Source: an uncultured Bacilli bacterium
Lineage (GTDB): Bacteria > Bacillota_I > Bacilli_A > RF39 > UBA660
Assembly: GCA_947631045.1 (NCBI GenBank)
Contig: CANRJV010000009.1
Coordinates: 1 to 40,653, forward strand
DNA: 40,653 nucleotides
Direction of reading: 5' to 3'
Below, piece by piece: positions 27,866 through 37,758 of the stretch (position 1 is the stretch's first letter; each line of letters starts with the position of its first letter). A model generated the notes under the pieces. It saw only the letters and a program-made list of their open reading frames with translations, searched no databases and had not been told where the DNA came from. The position numbers and the translations under genes are program-made.

Positions 27866-28252
27866 ATGATTGAAATAAATAAAGTACGCTATAATAATTA
27901 TGATATTAAAATTACTTGGGGAGAATTTAATACTTCTAATAATGGCCAAAAAAGATACGGCATAGCGCCTTATATCACCTTTCATACAAATGATGTTATT
28001 AAGATTATTGGCCTTGAATTTACTTTTTCTAAATCCATGTTTTTAGATACTAAAATAGATAAAAAAACAAATGTCAAAGAATATATAAGTATTAGTTTTT
28101 ATAATGAAGATGATAAAGAATGGGATACGCCAATAATTGAAAAATGTAATTGTTTCATTACAAGAATAAATGAAAAATTTTTTAATTTGGATTTTTATAT
28201 GCAAAATAAAGATTTAGAAATAACTATAAATGAAGATATTAAATTATTTTAA
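27866..28252 (+). CDS. Unrecognised 128-aa protein
   Basis: This is a soluble, beta-rich sequence with alternating hydrophobic residues (YGIAPYITFHTNDVIKII, FFNLDFYMQNKDLEITI), and no signal peptide, membrane segment or known motif. The ribosome site GGAGAGAAA lies 7-9 bp upstream. It sits alone between the rpmA terminator and the repeat protein. I do not recognise it. Confidence 0.6.
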   Translation: MIEINKVRYNNYDIKITWGEFNTSNNGQKRYGIAPYITFHTNDVIKIIGLEFTFSKSMFLDTKIDKKTNVKEYISISFYNEDDKEWDTPIIEKCNCFITRINEKFFNLDFYMQNKDLEITINEDIKLF

Positions 28253-28345
28253 TACACATTTAATAAAAATTAACATTATTTTATAAATAATTTTTCCAAA
28301 AAATTAATTTCATGTTATAATAATAACAATTTTTAAGGAGGTTTT

Positions 28346-29527
28346 ATGAATTTAAATATTGAATTTTTAATAAAACAAGATTTCGATAAATTTATAAAAT
28401 TAGTTGAACTAGGCATCATTGATAATGAAACTGCTTGCGATGCTGTTATAGAAAGTAAAAATTCTGAATATATTTACGTATTAGCTAGAGATGGAAAAAA
28501 TATTAATATTAAAAAATTAGAAGATGCCATCATTCAAACGGGTAATGCCAAATATATTTATTATTTTGCTAAAAATGTACAAGGCGCTAATATCGAAAAA
28601 TTAGAAGATGCAATTATTCAAACGGGTAATATCGAATATATTTATAAGTTTGCTAGAGATGTACAAGGCGCTAATATCGAAAAATTAGAAGATGCTATCA
28701 TTCAAACTGGTAATGCTAAATATATTTATTATTTTGCTAAAGATGTACAAGACGCTAATACTGAAAAATTAGAAGATGCCATCATTCAAACGGGTAATGC
28801 CGAATATATTTATTATTTTGCTAGAGATGTACAAGGCGCTAATATCGAAAAATTAGAAGATGCTGTCATTCAAATTGGTAATGCCAAATATATTTATTGT
28901 TTTGCTGGAAATGTACAAGGCGCTAACATTGAGAAATTAGAAGATGCCATCATTCAAATTGGTAATGCCAAATATATTTATTATTTTGCTAGAAATGTAC
29001 AAGGCGCTAATATTGAAAAATTAGAAGATGCTATCATTCAAACTGGTAGTGCCGAACATATTTATTATTTTGCTGCTGCTATATATGGGACTAATATCGA
29101 AAAATTAGAAGATGCTATCATTCAAACGGGTAATGCCGAATATATTTATTATTTTGCTAAAAATGTCCAAGGCGCTAATATCGAAAAATTAGAAGATGCC
29201 ATCATTCAAACAGGTAATATCGAATATATTTATAAGTTTGCTAGAGATGTCCAAGGTGCTAATATTGAAAAATTACTGAATGTAATTATTGAAAGCCAAG
29301 ATATAAACCGAATTACATTTGCTAGAATCATTTTCATAGAAAGATCACAGGAAACATTGAAAAGCATAAAAACAAAAAATGATTTTGTTAATTTAATGTT
29401 TTTACTAGACCAAGAAAATTATACAGCTATTTTAAATAATAGGCAAAAATATGAACAATTATTTAGAGATGACTCTGATAATCAAGGAAGAAGTCTTAAA
29501 AGAGAAAAAAATACCTTAAAAAAATAA
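28346..29527 (+). CDS. Tandem 28-residue repeat protein
   Basis: The product is 393 aa. Residues 57-308 are nine head-to-tail 28-residue units of the form KLEDAIIQTGNAxYIYYFAx-xVQGANIE, with a divergent unit before (about 29-56) and after (from 309). Each unit probably forms a helical hairpin, building a solenoid. Units 8-9 repeat the variants of units 1-2 (A/KN then I/RD), pointing to block duplication. The N-terminal 28 residues and the C-terminal 85 (basic, ending KREKNTLKK) are unique. There is no signal peptide or membrane segment, so it is likely cytosolic. TATAAT (about 28316) and AAGGAGG precede the ATG. Function is unknown; solenoids of this type usually bind proteins. Confidence 0.75.
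   Translation: MNLNIEFLIKQDFDKFIKLVELGIIDNETACDAVIESKNSEYIYVLARDGKNINIKKLEDAIIQTGNAKYIYYFAKNVQGANIEKLEDAIIQTGNIEYIYKFARDVQGANIEKLEDAIIQTGNAKYIYYFAKDVQDANTEKLEDAIIQTGNAEYIYYFARDVQGANIEKLEDAVIQIGNAKYIYCFAGNVQGANIEKLEDAIIQIGNAKYIYYFARNVQGANIEKLEDAIIQTGSAEHIYYFAAAIYGTNIEKLEDAIIQTGNAEYIYYFAKNVQGANIEKLEDAIIQTGNIEYIYKFARDVQGANIEKLLNVIIESQDINRITFARIIFIERSQETLKSIKTKNDFVNLMFLLDQENYTAILNNRQKYEQLFRDDSDNQGRSLKREKNTLKK
28514..29269 (+). repeat. 84-bp tandem repeat array (nine units)
   Basis: Nine in-frame 84-bp units lie inside the preceding CDS and are highly similar at DNA level (many share ATTAGAAGATGC, ATCATTCAAAC and GTACAAGGCGCTAATATCGA). Most differences are synonymous or confined to four positions per unit. 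Unit number could change by slippage or recombination without breaking frame. Confidence 0.9.
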
Positions 29528-29547: not shown

Positions 29548-29580
29548 GAAGATTGTATTATATGTTACAATCTTCTTTTT
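29548..29580 (+). terminator. Terminator after the repeat protein
   Basis: A 10-bp perfect stem GAAGATTGTA (29548-29557) with TACAATCTTC (29566-29575) is followed by TTTTT. Confidence 0.8.
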
Positions 29581-29643
29581 GAATTCATATTTATTAATTT
29601 AAAATCGTATGATATAATGTTCTAAAGAATAGGGGCCAAAGCG

Positions 29644-30936
29644 ATGAAAAAATATTTTTTATTATTATTAGGATTTCTTTTAATGATACCTCAACTTGTC
29701 TATGCCGTTACTTGTAGTGCTGGTAGTGATTATAATGCCGAAATTGTTATAGATAAAGACAAAATTAGTGTCAGTGAAAAAGCCTTTATTGCGGTTAATA
29801 CCTCTTATGATTATACTGTCGATTACTACTCATTTAATAATGATATTGCTACAGTTTCTAAAGAGGGCATCATTACACCCTTAAAATTTGGTAGTGCTTT
29901 AATAAGAGTAACAATAACCTTCTTAAAAGATAATGCCATTGTAGCCACTTGTCCCGCAGTTATATCTGTTGAAGTTGTATCCAACGATTCATCACTTAAA
30001 TCCTTAAATTTAGAAGAAATAGATATTTCTAAAACTTTTAGTCCTAATATTTTAGAATATAGTGTTACGGTTCCATATGAAACCGATAAAATAAATATTT
30101 TAGCAATGGCGAGTAATCCCAGAGCCACAATTAATGGCATAGGAAGAAGATATTTAGAAGTGGGAAACAATTCCTTTGATATTGAAGTAAAAGCCTCAGA
30201 TGGAACAACAACAACTTATAAATTAAATGTTTTAAGAAGTGATCCTAGTAATGATAATAATTTAAAGAGTTTAGAAGTAGAAGGATTTAACTTAAATCCC
30301 GAATTTACCCCAGATAATCCAAAATATACTTTAGAAGTCGATGAAAATACGGAAGAAATAAATATAACTGGTGAAGTTAATCAAAAAGGGGCCTCAGTTA
30401 AAGGATTAGGTAGTCATAAACTTGCTAGTGGCATCTCTGTATACGTAATTACTGTAGAAGCCGAAAATAAAGAGAAAAAAGAGTATACCATTGAAATAAC
30501 CAAACTAAATGGTAGTAGTATCTTAGATGAATTAAAAGTTAAAGATTATAAATTAAAAGAAAAATTTAAAAGTGATTTATATACTTATAATATGGTGGTA
30601 GGAAACAACACTACTAATTTAGAAATCAACGCAAAATCAGCTAAGACTGCTAAAATAGAAATAACGGGAAATAAAAACTTAAAAGAAGGATTAAACGAAG
30701 TATTTATTAAAGTAACCGAAGAGGGTAAGAGTAGTAGTACTTATAAAATAATCGTTAATAAATTAAATGCGGAAGAAGAGAAAAGAATAGAAAAAAATAA
30801 TCTTCTTTTAAGAATATTACTGATAATATTTATTATTTCTATTATCATTATGGTTTCTTTAATTGCTGTTTTTATTAAAAGAAACTATAAGAAGAAATAC
30901 TTAATTAGTAAAAGTAAGAAAAAGAAAAATTCTTAA
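29644..30936 (+). CDS. Surface protein with cadherin-like beta-sandwich domains
   Basis: The product is 430 aa, with a signal peptide (about 1-21, ending VYA) and a C-terminal membrane anchor (about 383-405) followed by a basic tail (KRNYKKKY). The outside part holds a Big-type N-terminal domain (about 28-110) and three repeats of the cadherin-like beta-sandwich type, each opening with a SLKSLNLE-like strand and ending in a TYKLNV- or TYKIIV-like strand (about 115-198, 202-286, 287-372). It is an exported, membrane-tethered adhesin or wall-associated protein by architecture. The start follows GGGGCC. A terminator lies just after. The ligand is unknown. Confidence 0.75.
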   Translation: MKKYFLLLLGFLLMIPQLVYAVTCSAGSDYNAEIVIDKDKISVSEKAFIAVNTSYDYTVDYYSFNNDIATVSKEGIITPLKFGSALIRVTITFLKDNAIVATCPAVISVEVVSNDSSLKSLNLEEIDISKTFSPNILEYSVTVPYETDKINILAMASNPRATINGIGRRYLEVGNNSFDIEVKASDGTTTTYKLNVLRSDPSNDNNLKSLEVEGFNLNPEFTPDNPKYTLEVDENTEEINITGEVNQKGASVKGLGSHKLASGISVYVITVEAENKEKKEYTIEITKLNGSSILDELKVKDYKLKEKFKSDLYTYNMVVGNNTTNLEINAKSAKTAKIEITGNKNLKEGLNEVFIKVTEEGKSSSTYKIIVNKLNAEEEKRIEKNNLLLRILLIIFIISIIIMVSLIAVFIKRNYKKKYLISKSKKKKNS

Positions 30937-37373: not shown

Positions 37374-37758
37374 AAACTTCACCTATCTAAATATTATTTA
37401 AATAAATTGGTAATTATAACCAATAGAAGAGAATAAATAAATCTTCTTAATTTTTATTTCAAAGGTATTGGTTTACATAATATACATTATGCAATCTTCA
37501 TATATTGCTAAAAATTACAATTATTTGTGAAACTTTCTAACTAACTTTTAAGTCTATCTTCTCTTTTTTAAAATATTTTTTGGAACTTAAAAATTATTCT
37601 AGAAAATTATTTTTATTTTTTAAATTAAATTTTGGTTTTTATTTATTATAACCTTATTAAAATATTTAATTAGGATTATACACACGTTATATCCTATTAT
37701 TTATATATTAATAAGGATATATACATGTACCCTACTTTTTAAAAGAGTAGGGAGAGAA
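37374..37758. other. Gene-free stretch with two hairpins
   Basis: About 385 bp of A+T-rich DNA without a convincing ORF. It holds a near-perfect inverted repeat TATCCTATTA/TAATAAGGATA (about 37689-37721) and CCCTACT/AGTAGGG (about 37730-37751). Neither is followed by a proper T run on the plus strand. I see no promoter strong enough to claim an RNA gene. Confidence 0.4.

Follow-up and report, generated by a model that had tools for sequence, protein, structure and literature searches.

Alpha-solenoids of the Sel1, HEAT, armadillo and PUF types consist of stacked helical hairpins, and the repeat units of such solenoids are mostly longer than 28 residues. The protein described here resembles them in that its predicted structure is a stack of helical hairpins of fixed length, which places it among the alpha-solenoid tandem repeats, but it differs from them in having no sequence-profile match to any of these types among the families listed. 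Concerning repeat proteins in general, the part of the genome-wide analysis by Persi, Wolf and Koonin (2016; PMC5120217) considered here describes fast divergence between the units of one protein and slower divergence between orthologous units, and attributes inter-unit divergence genome-wide to relaxed purifying selection together with positive selection.

We analysed a window of 40,653 nucleotides from an uncultured Bacilli bacterium (the term window refers to this entire stretch), in which a single gene encodes a protein with nine very similar units (Table 1). The gene is flanked on one side by rpmA (L27, assigned by Pfam) and on the other by a gene for a surface protein (29644-30936, + strand) with Cadherin-like domains and a hydrophobic segment at each end. 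A 128-aa ORF (27866-28252, + strand) is located between rpmA and the repeat gene; it had no notable match in Pfam or NCBIfam and a weak match to Cas10 in PADLOC (E 0.0056). With its Shine-Dalgarno sequence, promoter-like site and intrinsic terminator, the anatomy of the repeat gene is best read as that of a monocistronic gene for a stand-alone protein; promoter-like sites in the window (39, compared with 40.9 in shuffled sequences) do not exceed chance. The G+C content of the gene equals that of the whole window (0.274 and 0.277, respectively). A Kyte-Doolittle scan found no hydrophobic segment in the repeat protein, which fits the proposal in the first-pass annotation of this DNA that the protein is cytosolic.

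Table 1 Positions of the repeat-protein gene, its expression signals and its parts in the window
Feature	Position	Strand	Basis or remark
Promoter-like site with TATAAT at 28316-28321	28293..28321	+	Suggestive at most
Shine-Dalgarno AAGGAGG, 4 nt 5' of ATG	28335..28341	+	Read from sequence
Repeat-protein ORF, 393 aa	28346..29527	+	ORF list; homologues in other genomes
N-terminal cap, residues 1-53, containing degenerate unit 28421-28504	28346..28504	+	
Unit 1	28505..28588	+	
Unit 2, protein sequence identical to unit 9	28589..28672	+	
Unit 3	28673..28756	+	
Unit 4	28757..28840	+	
Unit 5	28841..28924	+	
Unit 6	28925..29008	+	
Unit 7, most divergent	29009..29092	+	
Unit 8	29093..29176	+	
Unit 9	29177..29260	+	
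Degenerate tenth unit, beginning only, closes solenoid	29261..29302	+	Sequence and AlphaFold2 model
Linker, low confidence, residues 320-346	29303..29383	+	pLDDT <50 at 323-345
Small helical C-terminal module, residues 347-373, conserved L, I, N, LF	29384..29464	+	Model and alignment
Intrinsic terminator: 10-pair stem 29548-29575, followed by T run	29548..29582	+	

The array (28505-29260) consists of nine 84-bp units of 28 residues each, in register and ungapped, with degenerate units at both ends; the count is that assembled in the MAG, and the longest exact repeat within the array, at 48 bp, is in principle short enough for the array to be resolved from short reads. TRF reported the array at 28504-29275 (period 84, 9.2 copies, 0% indels, score 1124), and no other tandem repeat in the window comes near this score, the next best reaching 102. 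We also noted a 41-bp AT-rich intergenic tandem repeat of ~2 copies at 37646-37725. Compared with one another, the nine units agree at 17-28 of 28 residues and 65-79 of 84 nt, with unit 7 as the outlier, confirming the nine near-identical 28-residue units previously annotated at 28514-29269, a span that covers the same array shifted in phase by 9 nt. The suggestion that units 8-9 copy the variant pattern of units 1-2 holds modestly: units 2 and 9 encode identical protein sequences and share 79/84 nt, units 1 and 8 have two amino acid differences and also share 79/84 nt, and the two-unit blocks together share 158/168 nt, the top value among all block pairs, with the runner-up at 153. Among the 50 family proteins with at least five units, within-protein unit identity has a median of 0.52 and is 0.72 in the window protein, tied for the highest with L036:9743. 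This homogeneity and the block similarity agree with the recent expansion that had been proposed for the array.

The AlphaFold2 model of the repeat protein, built with a 19-row alignment, has a mean pLDDT of 87.7 and a pTM of 0.76. In this model, each unit forms one compact two-helix hairpin with helix A at unit positions 2-12 and helix B at positions 15-24, and helices of 10-11 residues alternate across residues 27-301 (10-residue mean pLDDT 90-99, and 85 near the end); residues 323-345 have low confidence and are followed by short helices. With regular A/B hairpins and a pLDDT of ~96-99 over the units, the structure prediction that had been proposed as a check upheld the solenoid, and the protein is predicted to be an alpha-solenoid that is capped at its N terminus and followed by a flexible linker and a small, conserved C-terminal module. 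Foldseek against the PDB returned 11 matches at E ≤0.001, generic alpha-solenoids with low TM-scores (0.08-0.25 in the rows listed). VIA-align matched the model to the PP2A scaffold, a Phytophthora effector, PUF and designed repeats with Z ≤11.4 and rmsd mostly 4-10 (the top figures being Z 11.4 with rmsd 6.6 over 273 residues and Z 10.5 with rmsd 4.3 over 238), scores in the range for which the tool warns that they may reflect only the arrangement of helices common in repeats.

The presence of PUF among these matches (Z 8.4-10.3) and the code-like spacing of the variable residues (i, i+4, i+7/8; see below) would be compatible with a modular RNA- or DNA-binding solenoid in the style of PUF or PPR proteins, in which one unit reads one base. 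We consider this highly improbable, because the window protein is acidic (pI 4.85 and a net charge of -1.6 per unit, with family medians of 5.34 and -0.80), the Z-scores lie in the range to which the warning of the tool applies, and the unit is 28 aa long with two helices and matches neither a PUF nor a PPR profile among the families listed.

Searches of Pfam, NCBIfam, PHROGs, PADLOC and PDB sequences gave no credible match to the repeat protein. In PADLOC, 0 families matched at E ≤0.01; the matches in Pfam, NCBIfam, PHROGs and PDB sequences were dismissed as chance or as weak similarities added up over the repeats, most of them with 0 passing stretches. PF22471 (Mcm2-like_OB_arc) reached 38.7 bits, above its cut-off of 27, yet no single stretch passes and 2/19 members match; because the model is helical without strand, we did not accept an OB-fold identity. 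Sel1, TPR, PPR, PUF, HEAT, LRV and DUF4116 were absent from all nine Pfam families found at E ≤1 with the window protein, and they were also absent among 25 of the 30 matching families, those shown, in a scan of 19 members. A distant relation to them may exist, short repeats being missable by profiles. Among the open-licence papers listed by literature searches, we recognised none on this 28-residue repeat. The family is uncatalogued in the profile libraries searched; its structural kind, the alpha-solenoid, is already known.

Based on sampling by species, with one genome per species and the source genome of the window counted throughout, homologues are present in 12/38 genomes of the genus and 36/291 genomes of the taxonomic family. 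An order-level sample gave 43/288 genomes, with every match within the same taxonomic family (f1), and a phylum-level sample 2/392, both in f1. A scan of named genomes yielded 17 loci; their titles read uncultured Bacilli, Bacillales or Clostridia, and many come from 'Lapin' samples. Two matches were on plasmids. The one from Paenibacillus (L049) was rejected because it reflects low complexity and goes unflagged by the unit model, and L049 has no repeat gene. We kept the other as weak: Stutzerimonas frequens plasmid protein WP_326430466.1 has three hmmsearch unit matches and just one under a stricter unit scan, and it differs from the family in having ~31% identity, belonging to another phylum and being different in the remainder of the protein. 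Family genes are multi-copy and often in tandem (e.g. on contigs C5 and C21 of genome G008 and contig C9 of genome G027, and at loci L036, L037 and L042). We recognised 389 units in 44 proteins (2-19 each, spacing mostly 28) after leaving out duplicates and proteins <150 aa, and 564 units, at most 20 per gene, in 60 genes after leaving out duplicates by containment and units scoring <12. One member (L036:9743-12124, 793 aa) has two hydrophobic segments and sequence that by eye is coiled-coil-like ahead of 14 very similar units, and is a possible membrane-anchored version.

Of the other genomes, 30 gave a Prp hit, and the rpmA flanks were read in 20 of these. Both flanks of the slot were seen in 12/20 genus relatives, and credible repeat genes were present in 0 of these 12; across the 20 flanks there was no same-site orthologue of the window gene, and a weak unit-model match (L122, E 0.0034) was set aside. 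Because the distance from rpmA to the Cadherin-like gene ranges from 66 to 4354 nt, the slot is generally variable. In other species, family genes are located close to the same gene cluster: L042 and L046 (the latter with only a 115-aa ORF of two units) have them between the genes for M50 peptidase and L21, and in L076 two ORFs separate the family gene from the M50 gene, upstream of which it lies. A further site lies directly 3' of a gene that we take, by eye, to be pheT. Here, genomes G006, G027 and G008 contain copies with 10, 12 and 19 units, respectively, the internal units of which have no one-to-one correspondence; a divergent subtype is found directly 3' of pheT in G022 and two ORFs from it in G035. 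In two genomes in which the site is empty (G032 and G021), the shared downstream sequence lies within ~16 bp of the pheT stop, and in G008 ~2.6 kb (roughly L061:7603-10187) with the repeat gene and a gene for a 189-aa protein, in which one hydrophobic segment is present, fills it. G027 has the same arrangement as G008. The downstream sequences are 89-93% identical. No target duplication was noticed at the filled/empty pair. In total, pheT flanks were read in 25/38 genus genomes, i.e. 20 fetched (the source genome included), none with the repeat gene, and five from earlier loci. In G011, the pheT match (C15:5370-7748, - strand) contains one in-frame TGA. The presence in 12/38 genus genomes, the variable slot after rpmA and the clean filled/empty pair after pheT substantiate the accessory position ascribed to the gene.

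The immediate neighbours at 40 loci (including L049 without a repeat gene) contained no conserved linked partner gene, for which a search had been recommended, and recurring neighbours reflected only shared housekeeping synteny. The 189-aa membrane protein adjoins the repeat gene in the G008/G027 pair only. The other neighbours are diverse; one is a Fic protein by Pfam, and several are presumably housekeeping genes (FtsZ, RecA, S4, GroES and LexA, by eye). No defence-gene neighbour was recognised among the loci listed. An alternative role would be in conflict with phages or between bacteria, with the protein acting as a sensor or decoy that recognises variable foreign proteins. Patchy presence, rapid unit turnover, a variable face and the position as a lone accessory gene would all suit such a role, as would the top viral-model match, an uncultured Caudovirales phage protein (A0A6J5RY29 in BFVD; 27% identity over 228 columns, E 1.7e-10) with predicted helical repeats. 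This phage protein differs in being viral and uncharacterised, and its TM-score is only 0.40/0.58. However, phage records contained no family match, two scans of viral contigs confirmed no family member, and neither a PADLOC match nor an effector domain nor a defence neighbour was recognised, making a role in conflict very unlikely.

In the window array, amino acid variation peaks at unit positions 16, 20, 23 and 24, followed by 12 and 15, and without unit 7 the 23 minority residues are more clustered than under uniform placement (P=0.0007), as expected from the first-pass annotation, which had placed the variation after GN, in the YIYxFA segment and before VQG. Entropy in the 389 family units peaks at positions 20, 23, 16 and 24, whereas positions 21 and 22 have the lowest values, and the window minority residues track it (Spearman 0.51, the family set including the window); the residues mixed at position 20 are Y, E, K, L, N, D, S, R and W. 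The inter-unit pN/pS is 0.47 in the window array and 0.39 without unit 7. We also compared 89 recent unit pairs from 39 genes, leaving out pairs with <80% nt identity. In these pairs, pS was 0.191 and the overall pN/pS 0.55; core positions changed at 0.12x pS (0.07-0.17) and positions 16/20/23/24, which form a stripe on helix B, at a pN of 0.220, i.e. 1.15x pS (0.94-1.43). The top four positions chosen on held-out genes gave 1.11 (0.83-1.42). Positions 16 and 20 alone gave 1.32 (1.03-1.64) at the 0.80 threshold, and 1.16 (0.75-1.66) and 1.38 (0.70-2.99) at the stricter thresholds of 0.85 and 0.90 (57 and 31 pairs), both of which span 1. The search for positive selection at the stripe thus returned a rate about equal to the synonymous rate and not clearly above it. 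Exposed positions of helix A, exposure being inferred from the sequence pattern and not from the model, had a pN of 0.101, giving a helix-B stripe to helix-A ratio of 2.18 (1.69-2.94).

These rates have to be weighed against near-neutral churn, i.e. a weakly needed solenoid in which units expand by slippage or unequal crossing-over and exposed residues are relaxed, with no selected diversification. A stripe rate equal to pS within error, strong unit turnover in paralogues and presence/absence among close species are what such churn would produce. Moreover, accelerated and relaxed evolution between repeats is general according to the part of PMC5120217 considered here, and because the selection it describes is relaxed as well as positive, a neutral component is expected in this family too. 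On the other hand, the overall pN/pS of 0.55 and the core value of 0.12 indicate a maintained fold, and the exposed residues of helix A are approximately twice as constrained as those of helix B, so that exposure alone is insufficient to explain the stripe. Overall, we regard near-neutral churn as possible but doubtful. We read the helix-B stripe as a nearly unconstrained or weakly diversified face that is distinct from the other exposed face; the data support that this face varies freely, and positive selection is unproven. The diversified binding surface of the first-pass annotation therefore stands only in part: the same positions vary family-wide and one helix-B face changes at ~2x the helix-A rate, but that rate is approximately synonymous.

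Comparison of the first genes of the clusters on G008 C5 and G027 C9 allowed us to follow individual units between genomes. Both genes have 10 units, and the order of the units is kept; of 28 residues, 27, 27, 28 and 27 are shared in units 1-4 and only 18-23 in units 5-10. The next paralogue in the two clusters has no such correspondence except at its ends, i.e. the first gene is not homogenised and the adjoining paralogue is scrambled. For codons 1-168, 169-336 and the rest of the first gene, dS is 0.14, 0.34 and 0.17, respectively, and dN 0.028, 0.144 and 0.022; four neighbouring genes have dS of 0.05-0.28 and dN of 0.009-0.029. Between the orthologues L060:9153-10334 and L062:5431-6615 from two species, nucleotide identity falls abruptly from ~95% to 84% at codon 169 and returns at codon 337. 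Because dS is raised as well in the divergent region (0.34 vs 0.14), recombination is indicated as much as selection, and the raised dS suggests gene conversion of a block in this pair. The pattern implies that orthologous units can be stable and that change is regional. In the one clear orthologue pair, changes are spread across most non-core positions. The trend in the part of PMC5120217 considered here is genome-wide and not specific to this family, and the G008/G027 pair keeps units 1-4 and does not keep units 5-10 equally.

Taking these data together, we give about an even chance to the reading that the protein is a cytosolic, protein-binding solenoid adaptor that evolves by duplication, loss and recombination of units. 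In this adaptor, each 84-bp unit would encode a helical hairpin, with core residues L5, I10, I18, F21 and A22 stacking the hairpins and helix-B residues 16, 20, 23 and 24 forming an outward-facing stripe with almost no constraint on change. The solenoid would bind its partner through the helix-B face, and the acidity of the solenoid points to a protein or peptide as this partner and not to nucleic acid; the constant C-terminal module would contact a common cellular partner. New specificities would arise by duplication, loss and recombination of units, with drift or selection then acting on the stripe. Residues L59 and F60 of the C-terminal module are invariant, and L37, L40, I49 and N52 nearly so, in a set of 21 chosen sequences, among them paralogues in which few units, or none, were recognised; modelled alone, the module has a pTM of 0.47. 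From the acidic units, the mixed residues at position 20 and this constant module, we infer that a protein-binding adaptor is favoured; judged from sequence, a recognition function is plausible, and the variable outer face suggests, but does not prove, a changing binding partner. Against the adaptor, no ligand, effector domain or conserved neighbour was found at the loci examined, the loose C-terminal pattern [YF]xxLF is present in 32/60 genes and absent in 28/60, and the divergent half of the G008/G027 gene has a dN/dS of 0.42, which is <1. In addition, the stripe rate is not clearly above synonymous, and unconstrained drift would look alike.

Extending the adaptor further, these small gut bacteria may hold a repertoire of modular binders with a constant N-cap and C-terminal module and exchangeable 28-residue blocks. 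Dispersed paralogues would diversify the helix-B stripe by duplicating and exchanging units, and closely related species would thereby read different intracellular targets, e.g. proteins of phages or rival cells; we consider a repertoire of this kind unlikely, if conceivable. What the window contributes is a repeat family that is new to the profile libraries searched, with a very regular 28-residue two-helix unit that has numerous natural variants and a variable face whose positions are mapped. If it is true that this face binds ligands, the family would be a naturally occurring collection of modular binders and would make it practicable to distinguish adaptive from neutral repeat churn in reduced bacterial genomes; if the face binds no ligand, the family would cleanly exemplify how repeats turn over neutrally while their fold is conserved.
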